Source of the DNA: a virus
Length of the DNA: 21,423 bases
IMG/VR virus record: IMGVR_UViG_3300009430_000014
Span: 1-21,423 of that record
Direction: 5' to 3' (one strand)
Shown: in pieces, positions 8,485 to 12,388 of the stretch
Layout of the letters: each line of letters opens with the position of its first letter
Numbering within the stretch: the first letter of the stretch is position 1
Position numbers and translations under genes: made by a program
Notes under the pieces: generated by a model
Database searches by the model: none
Seen by the model: the letters and a program-made list of their open reading frames with translations, nothing else
What the model was told of the DNA's origin: nothing

Positions 8485-9294
8485 TCAAAATAAAGAGCCT
8501 TGAGTATTTCCGATATCATCATAATTGCATACCATCCATTCTTCTTGCTTTCTTCTATTTGTCTTAGATGCAGATATAGTCCGTTCTATGCTGTGAATTA
8601 CCCAATTATTATTATCAGCATAGCTTTTAATTAGATCCATCGGGAACATTGTGAGCATGAATTTTCCTTTTACATTACTCAATAATTCTAATAGATCAAT
8701 CAGATTTTGTTCATTGAAAGATCCTTCGTAATGGCCGCAATCAGAGTTAACGTATGGTGGATCCACAAAATGGAAAGCATCATTATTGTCATAACATTCA
8801 ATCACAGTTAGAGCATCACGGCTTTCAATAGTTACATTCTCAAGACGTTTACAAAGTAACTCTGTAAATTCATCTTTAGCATTCGATAGTTTTTTAGGCA
8901 TACCTCCCGAAAAGTCATATCCAAAAGATCCATCAAGTTTTGAAGCAAATGACGTTTTACAGAGCGTCCACACCGCCCATGCTCTTTGAGCTTGAGTGAA
9001 AAAATCTGAATAATTTAATATATGTACAGCATGAGCATGCACATCCCTAGAATGAAGCGTTTTATCTATTTCCGTTTTTAACTCTTGATAGTTAACCTTT
9101 GCCATCCAATAGAACGTTACTAAGTCCATATTGATATCATTAATAATCTCTGCATCAACAGGGTTTTTAGCGAATAGCACAGCAGCACCGCCACAAAAGG
9201 CTTCTGTATATAACTTATGTTGTGGAATAAGCGGCAATATATGCTGAAGCATTGTCTGTTTGCCACCATAATAAGAAATAGGTGTTTTCATCAT
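8485..9294 (-). CDS. D12-class DNA adenine N6-methyltransferase (Dam-like)
   Basis: A 269-aa enzyme transferring a methyl group from S-adenosylmethionine to adenine in DNA. Motifs: TPISYYGGK at residues 4-12, the SAM-binding YTEAFCGGAAV at 29-39, and the catalytic DPPY at 178-181 (FVDPPYVNS). This layout is D12/Dam-like, whose best-known target is GATC, but the target here is not proven. The ATG at 9294 (MMKTPIS) is preferred because it sits right before the first motif. An upstream in-frame ATG at 9393 would add 33 residues encoded by a palindrome and is probably not used. Placed in a late operon, it probably modifies phage DNA against restriction. The divergent hairpin RNA promoter begins 18 bp upstream of its start. 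Confidence 0.92.
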   Translation of the reverse strand: MMKTPISYYGGKQTMLQHILPLIPQHKLYTEAFCGGAAVLFAKNPVDAEIINDINMDLVTFYWMAKVNYQELKTEIDKTLHSRDVHAHAVHILNYSDFFTQAQRAWAVWTLCKTSFASKLDGSFGYDFSGGMPKKLSNAKDEFTELLCKRLENVTIESRDALTVIECYDNNDAFHFVDPPYVNSDCGHYEGSFNEQNLIDLLELLSNVKGKFMLTMFPMDLIKSYADNNNWVIHSIERTISASKTNRRKQEEWMVCNYDDIGNTQGSLF

Positions 9295-9312
9295 TATATA
9301 AAAATTAGTTAT

Positions 9313-9320
9313 TATCTTTG
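9313..9320 (+). promoter_or_regulatory. -7 box of a Bacteroidetes promoter for the hairpin RNA
   Basis: TATCTTTG is identical to the -7 box before tRNA-Phe. It points away from the methylase gene and against all late genes. A transcript would start about 5-7 bases downstream, the first bases of the hairpin. No clear TTTG lies at the expected -33 distance; only a T-rich stretch (TTTTC, 9285-9289) is near, so the upstream element is weak or absent. Confidence 0.55.
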
Positions 9321-9323
9321 CGG

Positions 9324-9460
9324 TCCTACCACATACGAAATGCGCCAACACACAGAAGAGGATATTAGCCCTCGGCTCTGCGTGTTGGCGCATTTATGTT
9401 TGTATGTGGTAGGATACTACAAACAAGTCGGGGGCTTTTTTTAACCCCCAAGCTTTTTTT
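9324..9460 (+). ncRNA. Candidate small RNA: long rod-like hairpin plus terminator
   Basis: The outer stem TCCTACCACATAC (9324-9336) pairs with GTATGTGGTAGGA (9402-9414). The inner stem AAATGCGCCAACAC (9338-9351) pairs with GTGTTGGCGCATTT (9382-9395). Next come CAGA (9353-9356)/TCTG (9377-9380) and GAGG (9358-9361)/CCTC (9370-9373) around the 8-nt loop ATATTAGC. The main irregularity is a 6-nt bulge at 9396-9401. The terminator at 9430-9460 follows, giving an RNA of about 115-135 nt. It is antisense to the late operon between the methylase and the ~101-aa gene. A 34-codon ORF (9340-9444) lies within it, starting at the inner stem, but translation is unsupported. Function unknown; it could also be a mobile palindromic element. 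Confidence 0.55.
9430..9460 (+). terminator. Rho-independent terminator of the hairpin RNA
   Basis: GGGGG (9430-9434) and CCCCC (9445-9449) enclose a T-rich 10-nt loop and are followed by AAGC and seven T residues (9454-9460). The T tract is on the + strand, so it ends transcription coming from the hairpin rather than the late operon. The last T bases overlap the reverse-complemented stop codon of the ~101-aa gene, so the two units converge here. Confidence 0.65.
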
Positions 9461-9764
9461 AATTATTCTCTGTATTGCTAGCTATGTAGCTTTCAGCCTC
9501 TTCTTTCGAATCGAAAAGTATAGCATCATACAAATACTTCTCAGTGTCTACAATTTGATTATCGAGTACAGCTATTTTATTAATTGCTTCATCTCGAGTA
9601 ATTAAATTATTAGAAGCGATATACTCATTCAGCAATTCTTCTGTATCGAACTCTGCTGAATCAAACCCTTTCCCAGGCGTACACTTACCTTTAAAATTTA
9701 TTTCCATAATTTGTATTATTCCATTTCTATGGACTACAATACAGTTTTTCGTTAATTCTACCAT
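9459..9764 (-). CDS. Small acidic protein of unknown function downstream of the fibre
   Basis: A 101-aa acidic protein from the ATG at 9764 (MVELTKNC), 14 bp after the fibre stop. A longer version would need a TTG at 9782 overlapping the fibre stop. The C-terminal half is helical (DEAINKIAVLDNQIVDTEKYLYDAILFDSKEEAESYI). A two-fold similarity is visible between DTEELLNEYIASNN and DSKEEAESYIASNT. There is no membrane segment or known motif. Small genes after tail fibres are often fibre assembly chaperones or accessory proteins; that is only a guess here. Confidence 0.6.
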   Translation of the reverse strand: MVELTKNCIVVHRNGIIQIMEINFKGKCTPGKGFDSAEFDTEELLNEYIASNNLITRDEAINKIAVLDNQIVDTEKYLYDAILFDSKEEAESYIASNTENN

Positions 9765-9778
9765 GATATATATTATTA

Positions 9779-12388
9779 TCAATTAGTTGTTACAGTAAAC
9801 CCTAAACCAGACAAATATGATCTAGCATTAGATGATAAAGCAGTAGGAGCTCCACAATTTCCCGTTAAATCAATCATCTTACTGCCAGTTGCAGTTTGTA
9901 CTTGCGCTGCAAGGTCAATTAGCAATTTATCAGTCATCGCTGAGGTAAATACGCCTACGGCTGGTTTTAATAATACAGTATCTACCATACTGGAAAATTT
10001 TAATCCCCCACTATATGTAACGTTGATTGAGTAGATACTCAATGATTCAATTATTCCTTTTAAACTTGCTAAATCGCCACTTATTGAACTAGAGCTACCC
10101 GATATTGTAATGCGAACAGTTCTTTCGGGAATATCTCTTAAATTCCCTGTTATTGTTGAGGGAGCATTAAGTAGTTGTAAAATCCTCAGTTTTTTTGGTA
10201 AATCAGATAAATCGCCCGAAATATTTGGGCATCTATTTAACGATAAATTTTCAAGGCTTTTTGGTAAATCTCTATACTGCCCAGATAATGATGTATTTAA
10301 AACACTTGCCATATTAAACCTTATTATATCTCTAGGTAAAGAAGACACAAAACCATATACTTCATTTCCTTCTGATATTGAAACCCCTGTGTTGTTTACT
10401 ACCTCGTTAGCTTCTATTACTGGCAAAGGACTATTTACACTATGTCCTGCCCCTTCTTGTTGTATTTTAAATAGATTATCAATTTCTATTTCAGCTTTAT
10501 TAACGTTTAATTTGAAAGCAACAACTGTTGAGATGTCTTTCGGTAAAAATGTACTTGACCCTATTTCTGAAAGAGTTGTTCTGTCAATAAACACACCGCC
10601 CCTAATTACGGCGTATCCTGATTTATTAGTCTGAAAACTGTAAGTACAATAACCAGAACCGTCCCCATTCTTTCTAAAACCGATATACTTCTTAAATGGC
10701 GCAATATAAGGTTCAGGTGTACAATTACCATAATTAATTGCAGGATTTCCGTTTGTAATTCCATCCAAATTGTTTTGTGTATCTAACCATTTAGATGCAG
10801 TAGCATTCTCGGGAAGTAATTCTACAACACAACCATCAGTAGCTTTATTTATCTTATCGGAATAAGTCAATCTGCTTAAATCTGGGCGACCCATATTATA
10901 ATAATAGTCTACATCAGATTGCAAAAAACCTCGTTTGAAAAATCTAAAAAGAGAAATATCCCCATTAACTCTATATCCAGAAAGGTTAATATTTAGATTG
11001 GCAGTATTTTTAATTAATGGAGTTAAATTGTATTTCGCTTCTGCGCTTAATTCCCCATTTATATAAATACTCTGAGTGTTATTATAAAATGTACATATTG
11101 CGTGATAGCATTTTCCTGAACTAATGGATGAAGTTAGTAGCTGATAATCTACTCCGTCAACCATCAATCTAAATTGAAGTCTGCTACCTGATTCAATAGA
11201 TATAACGAAACTATCTGCTCCGGTTCCAGGATTTATCTTACTTACTAAAATTCCTCGAGATGCAGGTGTTATTTTAAATAAAATCTCAAACGAAAACCCA
11301 TTATCTCCTGTTTTAAACAAGTCGTTATGGTTAACAACGACACCATCATCAATACCGTCGAATTTATACCCGAACGCTTTCCTCACTTGCCTATTATCAA
11401 GCATCCCATCCGCATCAAGTCCAGCGTATCCGTTTGCCTGATTCTTTTTAGAAGTACGCTCAACCGTGTTGGGTATTTGCCCATCAGGTATGGCACCAGT
11501 AGCATCGAGTGCAGGATAACCGTTAGCACGACCCTTTTCGGATACTGTCTGATAAGTATCTGGTAATTGAGCTTTCAGGAGTTTACCGGTGCCATCCAAG
11601 CCCGGATATCCGTTTGCCTGATTCTTCTTTGATGTACGCTCAACCGTGTTGGGTATTTGCCCATCAGGTATGGCACCAGTAGCATCGAGTGCAGGATAAC
11701 CGTTAGCACGACCCTTTTCAGAGATAGGCTGATAAGTATCCGGTAATTGAGCTTTCAGGAGTTTACCGGTGCCATCTAAACCCGGATATCCGTTTGCCTG
11801 ATTCTTCTTTGATGTACGCTCAACCGTGTTGGGTATTTGCGCATCAGGTATGGCACCAGTAGCATCGAGTGCAGGATAACCGTTAGCACGACCCTTTTCG
11901 GATACTGTCTGATAAGTATCCGGTAATTGAGCTTTTAATAGTTTACCGGTGCCATCCAAACCAGCGTATCCGTTTGCCTTATTCTTGTTAGCCGTCTTTT
12001 CAGCTAACTGAAAATCTTTATCCGAGATAAATACTCTCCACTCAGACACATTTGACCAGGAAGCTATATTACTTCCATTGAAGTATGCAATTACTTCACC
12101 GTTGTCGGATTGGAACTTTATAACACAACCTCCTACACGCAAACGAGCAGGTACAAGTGCTATAGCTTGATCTAAAGTGAATACAGGTGTACCGTCAGTA
12201 TTAACATGATACCTAGATACATTATACATTTCTGATCTGCTTGAGTCGTCCGCTTCCTGCTGTTTATTTACCATTTGCAGCATCTGCTCACCCACTAGGG
12301 TGTGAGTATTAGATTCAGGTAGCTCATTTTGCCGGATGAGATTAGCACCGGCAACCAATTGTTCATAAGATTGTGTACTCATATTCAT
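9779..12388 (-). CDS. Tail fibre / receptor-binding protein with repeat shaft, LamG and LRR-like domains
   Basis: An 869-aa virion protein, probably the host-recognition fibre. Residues 1-130 form an attachment region with WSNVSEWRVF near the end. Residues 138-328 form a shaft of seven 30-residue half-repeats, each starting ANGY(A/P)xLD, with QLPDTYQ and QIPNTVE spacers. Residues about 340-500 are a concanavalin-like LamG domain (FDGIDDGVVVNHNDLF, GFSFEILFKI, ISLFRFFKRGFLQSDVD), a fold often binding glycans. Residues about 680-845 form LRR-like repeats (LPKSLENLSLNRCPNISGDLSDLPKKLRILQLL). It starts one base into the previous stop codon. Glycan or surface binding is inferred. The shaft repeats are almost identical in DNA, unlike the rest of the gene. 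Confidence 0.88.
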   Translation of the reverse strand: MNMSTQSYEQLVAGANLIRQNELPESNTHTLVGEQMLQMVNKQQEADDSSRSEMYNVSRYHVNTDGTPVFTLDQAIALVPARLRVGGCVIKFQSDNGEVIAYFNGSNIASWSNVSEWRVFISDKDFQLAEKTANKNKANGYAGLDGTGKLLKAQLPDTYQTVSEKGRANGYPALDATGAIPDAQIPNTVERTSKKNQANGYPGLDGTGKLLKAQLPDTYQPISEKGRANGYPALDATGAIPDGQIPNTVERTSKKNQANGYPGLDGTGKLLKAQLPDTYQTVSEKGRANGYPALDATGAIPDGQIPNTVERTSKKNQANGYAGLDADGMLDNRQVRKAFGYKFDGIDDGVVVNHNDLFKTGDNGFSFEILFKITPASRGILVSKINPGTGADSFVISIESGSRLQFRLMVDGVDYQLLTSSISSGKCYHAICTFYNNTQSIYINGELSAEAKYNLTPLIKNTANLNINLSGYRVNGDISLFRFFKRGFLQSDVDYYYNMGRPDLSRLTYSDKINKATDGCVVELLPENATASKWLDTQNNLDGITNGNPAINYGNCTPEPYIAPFKKYIGFRKNGDGSGYCTYSFQTNKSGYAVIRGGVFIDRTTLSEIGSSTFLPKDISTVVAFKLNVNKAEIEIDNLFKIQQEGAGHSVNSPLPVIEANEVVNNTGVSISEGNEVYGFVSSLPRDIIRFNMASVLNTSLSGQYRDLPKSLENLSLNRCPNISGDLSDLPKKLRILQLLNAPSTITGNLRDIPERTVRITISGSSSSISGDLASLKGIIESLSIYSINVTYSGGLKFSSMVDTVLLKPAVGVFTSAMTDKLLIDLAAQVQTATGSKMIDLTGNCGAPTALSSNARSYLSGLGFTVTTN
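11405..11977 (-). repeat. 180-bp direct repeats (three units plus a partial) within the fibre gene
   Basis: Units at 11798-11977, 11618-11797 and 11438-11617, with a partial unit to 11405, keep an exact 180-bp period. For example, the block caaccgtgttgggtatttgc recurs at 11461, for the first time here, again at 11641, and at 11821. Each unit contains two related 90-bp halves, giving seven ANGY half-repeats in the protein. Differences form a mosaic: the outer units encode QTVSEKG and the middle one QPISEKG. This suggests recent duplication or gene conversion. Confidence 0.92.

Follow-up and report, generated by a model that had tools for sequence, protein, structure and literature searches.

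A candidate phage small RNA with two pseudoknots, and its relatives beside sigma factor genes in Bacteroidota

The DNA analysed here, a viral stretch of 21,423 bp (IMG/VR record IMGVR_UViG_3300009430_000014; hereafter the window), carries its late region on the minus strand. Two tRNA genes (245–399) lie directly before a gene for a tyrosine-type integrase (527–1681), and this is likely to be the attachment region. At 9313–9460 on the plus strand, the box TATCTTTG is followed by a long rod, by GGGGGC with seven T residues, and by a second C5/T7 combination. As the preliminary description of this DNA had claimed, box, rod and U-tract can all be read on the plus strand, and the gene map agrees that the neighbouring late genes are all on the minus strand. 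The features of the locus are the following.

8485–9294, minus strand: divergent D12-class N6-adenine DNA methyltransferase, 269 aa (Pfam PF02086, PHROG phrog_56).
9313–9320, plus strand: −7 promoter box TATCTTTG (TAnnTTTG, sigma-ABfr type), from sequence, homologues and the consensus in PMC7366714.
9323–9442, plus strand: the putative RNA itself, ∼120 nt, from fold, parse and covariance models R1 and R2.
9325–9336, plus strand: P1 5' strand CCTACCACATAC, pairing with 9402–9413 (outer stem, 12 bp).
9340–9351, plus strand: P2 (rod) 5' strand ATGCGCCAACAC, pairing with 9382–9393 (inner stem, 12 bp).
9352–9381, plus strand: apical region with a small local helix, P3 (GAGG/CCTC), a competitor of PK1 (fold).
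9368–9377, plus strand: PK1 5' strand GCCCTCGGCT, in the apical loop, 10 bp with 9426–9435 (swap test).
9382–9393, plus strand: P2 3' strand GTGTTGGCGCAT (fold, parse, swap test).
9398–9404, plus strand: PK2 5' strand GTTTGTA, its last three bases common with P1, pairing with 9418–9424.
9402–9413, plus strand: P1 3' strand GTATGTGGTAGG (fold, swap test, alignment pair counts).
9418–9424, plus strand: PK2 3' strand TACAAAC (RNAalifold, swap test).
9426–9435, plus strand: PK1 3' strand AGTCGGGGGC, directly 5' of the U-tract (parse, swap test, alignment).
9430–9460, plus strand: second, competing GGGGG/CCCCC hairpin with a further T7, perhaps a fail-safe terminator (sequence, fold).
9436–9442, plus strand: U7 tract, with the PK1 helix the proposed pseudoknot terminator (sequence, homologues).
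9459–9782, minus strand: convergent 107-aa ORF, end of the tail module, no family above cut-off.

The methylase reading frame (8485–9393) is uninterrupted across the hairpin. Homologues of the protein align from residue 1–2 of the reading that begins at 9294, so this is most likely the start, and the extension to 9393 an artefact that arises because the hairpin contains no stop in this frame. On the plus strand, an open frame of 75 aa (9217–9444) runs across the element. An ATG ORF of at least 30 aa is present in just 13 of 76 homologues, which makes coding unlikely; it was rejected, in keeping with the earlier view that the unit has no good protein-coding explanation.

The TAnnTTTG promoter is of the host type and, as expected of a bacterial small RNA gene with a promoter of its own, TANNTTTG occupies the promoter position in 75 of the 76 homologues; in the single exception the model start had been placed too far upstream, and TATCTTTG is there after all. 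A weak −33 box had been seen as limiting confidence. This is no objection, given that in another member of the Bacteroidetes the −33 motif was not confirmed and TAnnTTTG was (PMC7366714). Judged by the promoter position, the 5' end of the RNA would lie at ∼9323–9325; the 3' end would fall within the U-tract. The covariance models match the window at 9317–9444 (R1) and 9317–9443 (R2).

The minimum free energy of the element is −70 kcal/mol as against −34.4 ± 3.5 for 200 shuffled sequences (z −10.2), none of which equals it, and the fold agrees with the imperfect rod-like hairpin described earlier. A local hairpin in the apical region accounts for −8.5 kcal/mol, and RGG..CCY pairing resembling P3 can be recognized by eye in most relatives. 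In one branch (L032, L034, L035, L036, L072, L075 and L077) each P2 arm is itself dyad-symmetric (GGTGCNNNNNCACC-like), the rod being palindromic twice over.

Rfam 15 contains no family that reaches the gathering threshold for the window, the phage relatives or the chromosomal relatives; elsewhere in the searched sequences it recognizes tRNA and RT-17/RT-3 only. For the window, lowering the bar to E values of up to 10 yielded nothing meaningful. Permissive matches below threshold to microRNA models, Methylobacterium-1 and FopS were judged to be chance matches to a strong hairpin. BLASTN of the window element against phages and plasmids returned A+T-rich noise only, and a search for the exact pattern of the P2 arm four chance-like matches. 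As the stems diverge too fast for BLASTN, relatives were sought through neighbouring genes and covariance. The divergent D12 methylase served as anchor for 45 viral loci and 52 loci in genome assemblies, most of which display a TAnnTTTG box and then a rod of quite different sequence, divergent from the methylase. By means of a descriptor parse this architecture was recovered at 62 of the 98 methylase loci, including 49 non-redundant ones; the taxa concerned are Phocaeicola, Bacteroides, Alistipes, Porphyromonas, Alkaliflexus, Capnocytophaga and a Sphingobacteriales MAG. When only the conserved 3' end, TAACRGGCCGGGGGCTTTTT, was used for scanning, 55 further viral stretches came to light, and the covariance model R1 has matches in genomes, both phage-type and chromosomal. 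The Bacteroidetes homologues that the preliminary description had proposed to look for thus exist in numbers.

Stem sequences are highly divergent among these homologues and their pairing is preserved: in a 76-row alignment the core pairs of P1 are kept in 98.6% of cells, with both sides varying at every pair. Uncompensated changes had been named beforehand as the observation that would speak against an RNA; the stem changes seen are compensated. The rod description holds for the stems, but it missed two conserved pseudoknots, PK1 and PK2. Along the strand the order is P1 5', P2 5', PK1 5' (in the apical loop), P2 3', PK2 5', P1 3', PK2 3', PK1 3' and the U-tract. The PK1 duplex, −17.5 kcal/mol in the window, is formed by GTCCCCAGC/GCTGGGGAC in L021, by GTCCTCCGT/ACGGAGGAC in a Capnocytophaga copy and by ACGCCGTAGA/TCTACGGCGT in L087; PK2 reads GTTTGTA/TACAAAC in the window and GTAAGTA/TACTTAC in L004.

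An alignment-free swap test compared the complementarity of each element's own strands with that of strands exchanged between elements. The z values were 27.5 for P1, 32.9 for P2, 14.6 for PK1 and 12.5 for PK2, none of 5000 permutations being as good, as opposed to −0.3 and −0.7 for two control strand combinations. In the 76-row alignment, which was fitted to a model with P1 and a short P2 helix, the pseudoknots being left out, and in which some 17 rows are antisense partial matches that contribute noise, covariation of the given structure was 0.390 versus 0.124 when shuffled and 0.037–0.066 when slid; the swap and shuffle controls leave sequence relatedness in. The main PK1 helix is paired in 94% of cells, with compensatory changes. 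The corresponding value for PK2 is 67%, its columns being partly out of register, and PK2 therefore rests on the swap test and on RNAalifold, which picked this helix unprompted from a 20-sequence alignment (A1). An A-C pair on the plus strand is a G-U pair on the opposite strand. G-U pairs exceed A-C pairs by 100 to 30 overall and by 44 to 4 in PK1 (p = 5e-10), P2 being devoid of strand bias (20 to 18); this excess points to the plus strand as the folded strand under selection. The putatively transcribed strand carries a conserved secondary structure, as looked for in a small RNA gene, and a rod with two pseudoknots is the predicted anatomy that comparative sequence analysis shows.

Two alternatives meet this evidence directly. 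The first is that the element acts purely as DNA, as a mobile palindrome, cruciform, terminator or binding site. The long inverted repeats and the site between convergent units would suit such a role; the strand-specific wobble bias, the conserved promoter, the one-sided U-tract and pseudoknot pairing across the element do not, and the element occurs as one copy in one place per phage. A DNA element of this kind is scarcely credible, and the mobile palindromic element entertained earlier is not supported, in view of the single copy at a fixed phage locus and the strand-specific constraint. The second is an ordinary prophage small RNA that base-pairs with host or phage mRNA targets through its loops or 3' strand. 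It would have, as here, its own promoter and terminator, and the G/C-rich 3' strand and apical loop are possible seeds. However, loop and 3' strand co-vary, which indicates internal pairing, the stems diverge freely and no conserved single-stranded seed was recognized, so that a role of this sort is unlikely.

There is, by contrast, strong support for the proposal of a candidate new phage small RNA, from the promoter in 75 of 76 homologues, the compensated stems, the wobble bias on the plus strand and the lack of an Rfam family. The RNA class is new in the sense that it falls outside every described RNA family tested, a new mechanism not being claimed as demonstrated, and no description of it was found in the open-licence papers searched. 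The hairpin is probably a small-RNA gene of an undescribed, doubly knotted family in phages of gut and oral Bacteroidota.

Termination would involve one of the pseudoknots. The preliminary description had proposed a GGGGG/CCCCC terminator with seven T residues. Such a hairpin is present (GGGGGC-TTTTTTT-AA-CCCCC, then a second T7 at 9454–9460), with −9.3 kcal/mol weaker than PK1 (−17.5 kcal/mol), but the conserved T-tract is the one at 9436–9442, directly after GGGGGC. CCCCC downstream is indeed a partner for GGGGGC, but in homologues its partner lies 5', in the apical loop. Nearly all homologues, chromosomal ones included, have the U-tract directly behind the PK1 3' strand; since this strand immediately precedes U7, the terminator helix would be the pseudoknot itself. 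A downstream hairpin that could serve as a fail-safe was counted in 66 of 70 cases, but with 55 expected from shuffles this count does not speak for its conservation. In the chromosomal copies, read by eye, the downstream hairpin was not seen, and PK1 may therefore be the sole terminator stem there. The element is presumably transcribed, with termination at the U-tract.

The neighbourhood of the RNA in phages is strikingly conserved. A D12 methylase lies within 3.2 kb upstream on the opposite strand in 62 of the 71 RNA-found phage loci with enough flank, a figure that is not a count of independent events because many loci are close relatives; eight of the remaining nine have a Mor-like gene, and two of these eight also ThyA. 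Speaking against the explanation favoured below, not all methylase loci carry the RNA, and some RNA loci are without a methylase in the stored flank. The methylase start codon is only ∼20–60 bp from the −7 box of the RNA. Downstream, phage loci harbour a convergent gene on the minus strand and no plus-strand gene behind the RNA. At ∼2600 in L127 an IS21-type transposase gene, recognized by eye, is situated just behind the RNA on the plus strand.

This arrangement invites the interpretation that the RNA is a cis-encoded regulator of the methylase module, antisense to the late or methylase leader, which limits the DNA methylase in the lysogen. The mom module of phage Mu, a loose analogue, is kept under tight control. 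The fixed divergent position beside a D12 methylase or a Mor-ThyA-methylase module and the short distance to the start codon favour this interpretation, and in view of the conserved neighbourhood the earlier suggestion of control over the divergent methylase keeps some merit. Yet the RNA lies upstream of the start region rather than over it, selection acts on plus-strand RNA structure, and antisense pairing would need no two pseudoknots. Furthermore, many methylase loci are without the RNA, and the chromosomal relatives have no divergent methylase. A regulator of the methylase module is thus doubtful, although it is the main rival of the explanation favoured below, and an exclusive methylase-specific function is weakened further by the Mor-like nearest neighbour in hankyphage-type loci and by the chromosomal copies.

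In hankyphage p00 (BK010646.1, 40532–40693; L186, 2139–2300) the RNA occupies a stretch devoid of annotation. In p00 and BKO1-TP1 its neighbours are, on one side, the Mor-like/ThyA/D12 methylase module and, on the other, DUF4376 together with the reverse transcriptase of a diversity-generating retroelement (DGR). The DGR has an RNA of its own, RT-3 (Rfam RF03068), at a separate locus between the hankyphage reverse transcriptase gene and the template repeat. RT-3 and RT-17 (RF03020) lie at reverse transcriptase genes in phages that also have the RNA described here, at most a few kb from it; the latter differs from RT-3 in locus and strand and is also present in phages without a retroelement. 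A DGR as a necessary link was discarded, as a reverse transcriptase lies within 3 kb in only 42 of 78 cases, and identity with a DGR RNA is not borne out, the reverse transcriptase not being beside the RNA in the window or in many relatives. RT-17 matches at L006 1933–2026, L007 1924–2017 and L012 770–859, a few kb from the element, are probably part of a retroelement.

The relatives in bacterial chromosomes have a different setting. R1 matches in five genomes, which are all five genomes of one Bacteroidales family in the collection searched, disclosed a locus with rubrerythrin/PerR on one side of the RNA and an ECF sigma gene on the other; in two stored stretches an AspRS-like gene comes next. 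In these copies (L177, L179, L181, L182 and L184, at ∼1500–1640) P1 has the sequence TCTCACTTAC, as in many phage copies. A covariance model built from the five chromosomal copies alone, R2, finds further copies in G268, G175, G097 and, four times, G287. It also finds phage RNAs, L007 with the best E value (4e-14) and the window with an E value of 2.6e-5 in 399 kb; the phage model and the chromosomal model thus detect each other's copies reciprocally.

All chromosomal copies that were read are followed on the same strand, after 16–42 nt, by a gene for an ECF sigma factor or for a small protein resembling sigma region 4. Pfam identified ECF sigma factors (Sigma70_r2/r4) in two proteins tested and Sigma70_r4_2 at or below cut-off in three, two sigma-like downstream proteins being below it. 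The L193 protein has no Pfam match and resembles sigma region 4 by eye only; that of L199 is sigma-like by eye, its gene start being uncertain. The four RNA copies of G287 (L191, L194, L195 and L196) each precede a sigma-region-4-like protein of 100–164 aa, one of them cut by the contig end, and the set looks like a paralogous RNA-protein cassette.

The chromosomal order of promoter, pseudoknotted RNA, terminator and a protein of 120–170 aa resembles toxI-toxN, and the phage copies have the RNA without the protein. This could suggest a type III, ToxIN-like RNA antitoxin or its mimic, a pseudoknotted RNA that neutralizes a protein and that phages would carry on its own. Phage PhiTE harbours such a pseudo-ToxI, an RNA mimic of a type III antitoxin (PMC3475682), and there too a phage pseudoknot RNA is related to a bacterial RNA placed upstream of a gene behind a terminator. 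However, ToxI consists of short pseudoknot units repeated in tandem and is partnered by the ribonuclease ToxN, whereas here one knotted rod of 120 nt has sigma-like partners. The window and all relatives read contain a single unit with no ToxI-like repeats, and no ToxN/CptN/TenpN-type toxin is encoded downstream, where phages have the convergent gene and chromosomes Sigma70 domains. A ToxIN-like antitoxin is improbable on these grounds; pseudo-ToxI is the nearest precedent for the idea, not for the RNA family.

The chromosomal copies also bear on a structural role in packaging or virion assembly. Conservation in unrelated phages, close to the tail end of the late module, and a compact knotted fold would be in keeping with it, and like the pRNA of Phi29 this is a small structured phage RNA with loops that might pair between molecules. 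The pRNA has another architecture and no match here, and relatives beside chromosomal sigma genes have no virion to build. Moreover, the RNA is common to transposable hankyphages and integrase phages, in which packaging is likely to differ. A structural RNA is accordingly very improbable.

The explanation that best accommodates these observations, and that is held to be probable as a whole, is a new RNA class with a pseudoknot terminator, trans-acting in phages and a sigma-gene leader in hosts. RNA polymerase would start at the TAnnTTTG promoter and produce an RNA of ∼120 nt, which would fold into the rod (P1 and P2) closed by PK1 and PK2. The PK1 3' strand would pair back to the apical loop, with the U-tract next to it, the pseudoknot helix serving as terminator stem; both RNA ends would be buried in the knotted fold. 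In chromosomes, where the context in front of sigma genes is observed, the alternative pairings of the apical loop in P3 and in PK1 may constitute an attenuator of the sigma gene. Pseudoknot riboswitch attenuators of the preQ1 and SAM-II type likewise have a pseudoknot near the 3' end of the leader and mutually exclusive pairing; they differ in that no known aptamer family matches here, the terminator stem would be the long-range pseudoknot, and phage copies have no downstream gene.

In phages, the action in trans mentioned in the preliminary description is favoured, as their copies lead into no plus-strand gene. A stable trans RNA may bind a host factor, either as a decoy of whatever reads the host leader or as a regulator of the DNA-modification module. 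Engagement of a host factor is suggested by the absence of a downstream gene, by conservation of fold over sequence and by the tie of the host form to sigma-like regulators; the role as decoy or trans-regulator is put forward tentatively. Somewhat more speculative is the idea that the pseudoknot-terminator RNA is a switchable sigma-gene leader in bacteria, captured by phages as an independent RNA that vies for the factor in question and accompanies their DNA-modification genes.

A promoter mimic like 6S RNA had also been considered. 6S RNA is, as here, a long rod with an internal open region tied to transcription; two conserved pseudoknots and pairing of a terminator with an apical loop are not known among its features. 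The 6S models found no match in the window at E values of up to 10 or in the chromosomal relatives at up to 5, and Bacteroides has a separate 6S RNA of its own (PMC7366714), and membership of the 6S family is not supported. Bacteroidota possess no obvious homologues of Hfq and ProQ (PMC7366714), and an RNA class of unusual architecture, common to diverse Bacteroidota phages and chromosomal sigma loci, points to an undescribed RNA-protein partnership. Hankyphages rank with the commonest temperate phages in the human gut, one estimate placing them in about half of people (PMC6199706), and this conserved gene has so far been unannotated in spite of that abundance. For the hankyphage of B. thetaiotaomicron jmh43, an inducible repressor knock-down and RNA-seq have been published (PMC12135933), the main text containing no mention of a small RNA; this phage is a ready model in which the question can be tested directly.

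If the RNA were a decoy, a leader would be expected in the phages' own hosts, but few genomes proved to contain the chromosomal form. In the Phocaeicola family (41 genomes) R2 detected phage-type copies only and not the chromosomal form. The RNA was detected in 21 of 393 genomes from the order of Phocaeicola and in 2 of 148 from that of Capnocytophaga; among 149 genomes from the phylum to which a treponeme-like MAG belongs, a weak control, there was none. Two contigs assigned to other lineages, L057 (Lachnospiraceae MAG) and L077 (Spirochaetia MAG), bear a Bacteroidota-type RNA with the methylase and are likely to be mis-binned. One 58-kb contig, IMGVR_UViG_2921101260_000002, accommodates two copies of the RNA (L142 and L147), perhaps in neighbouring prophages.
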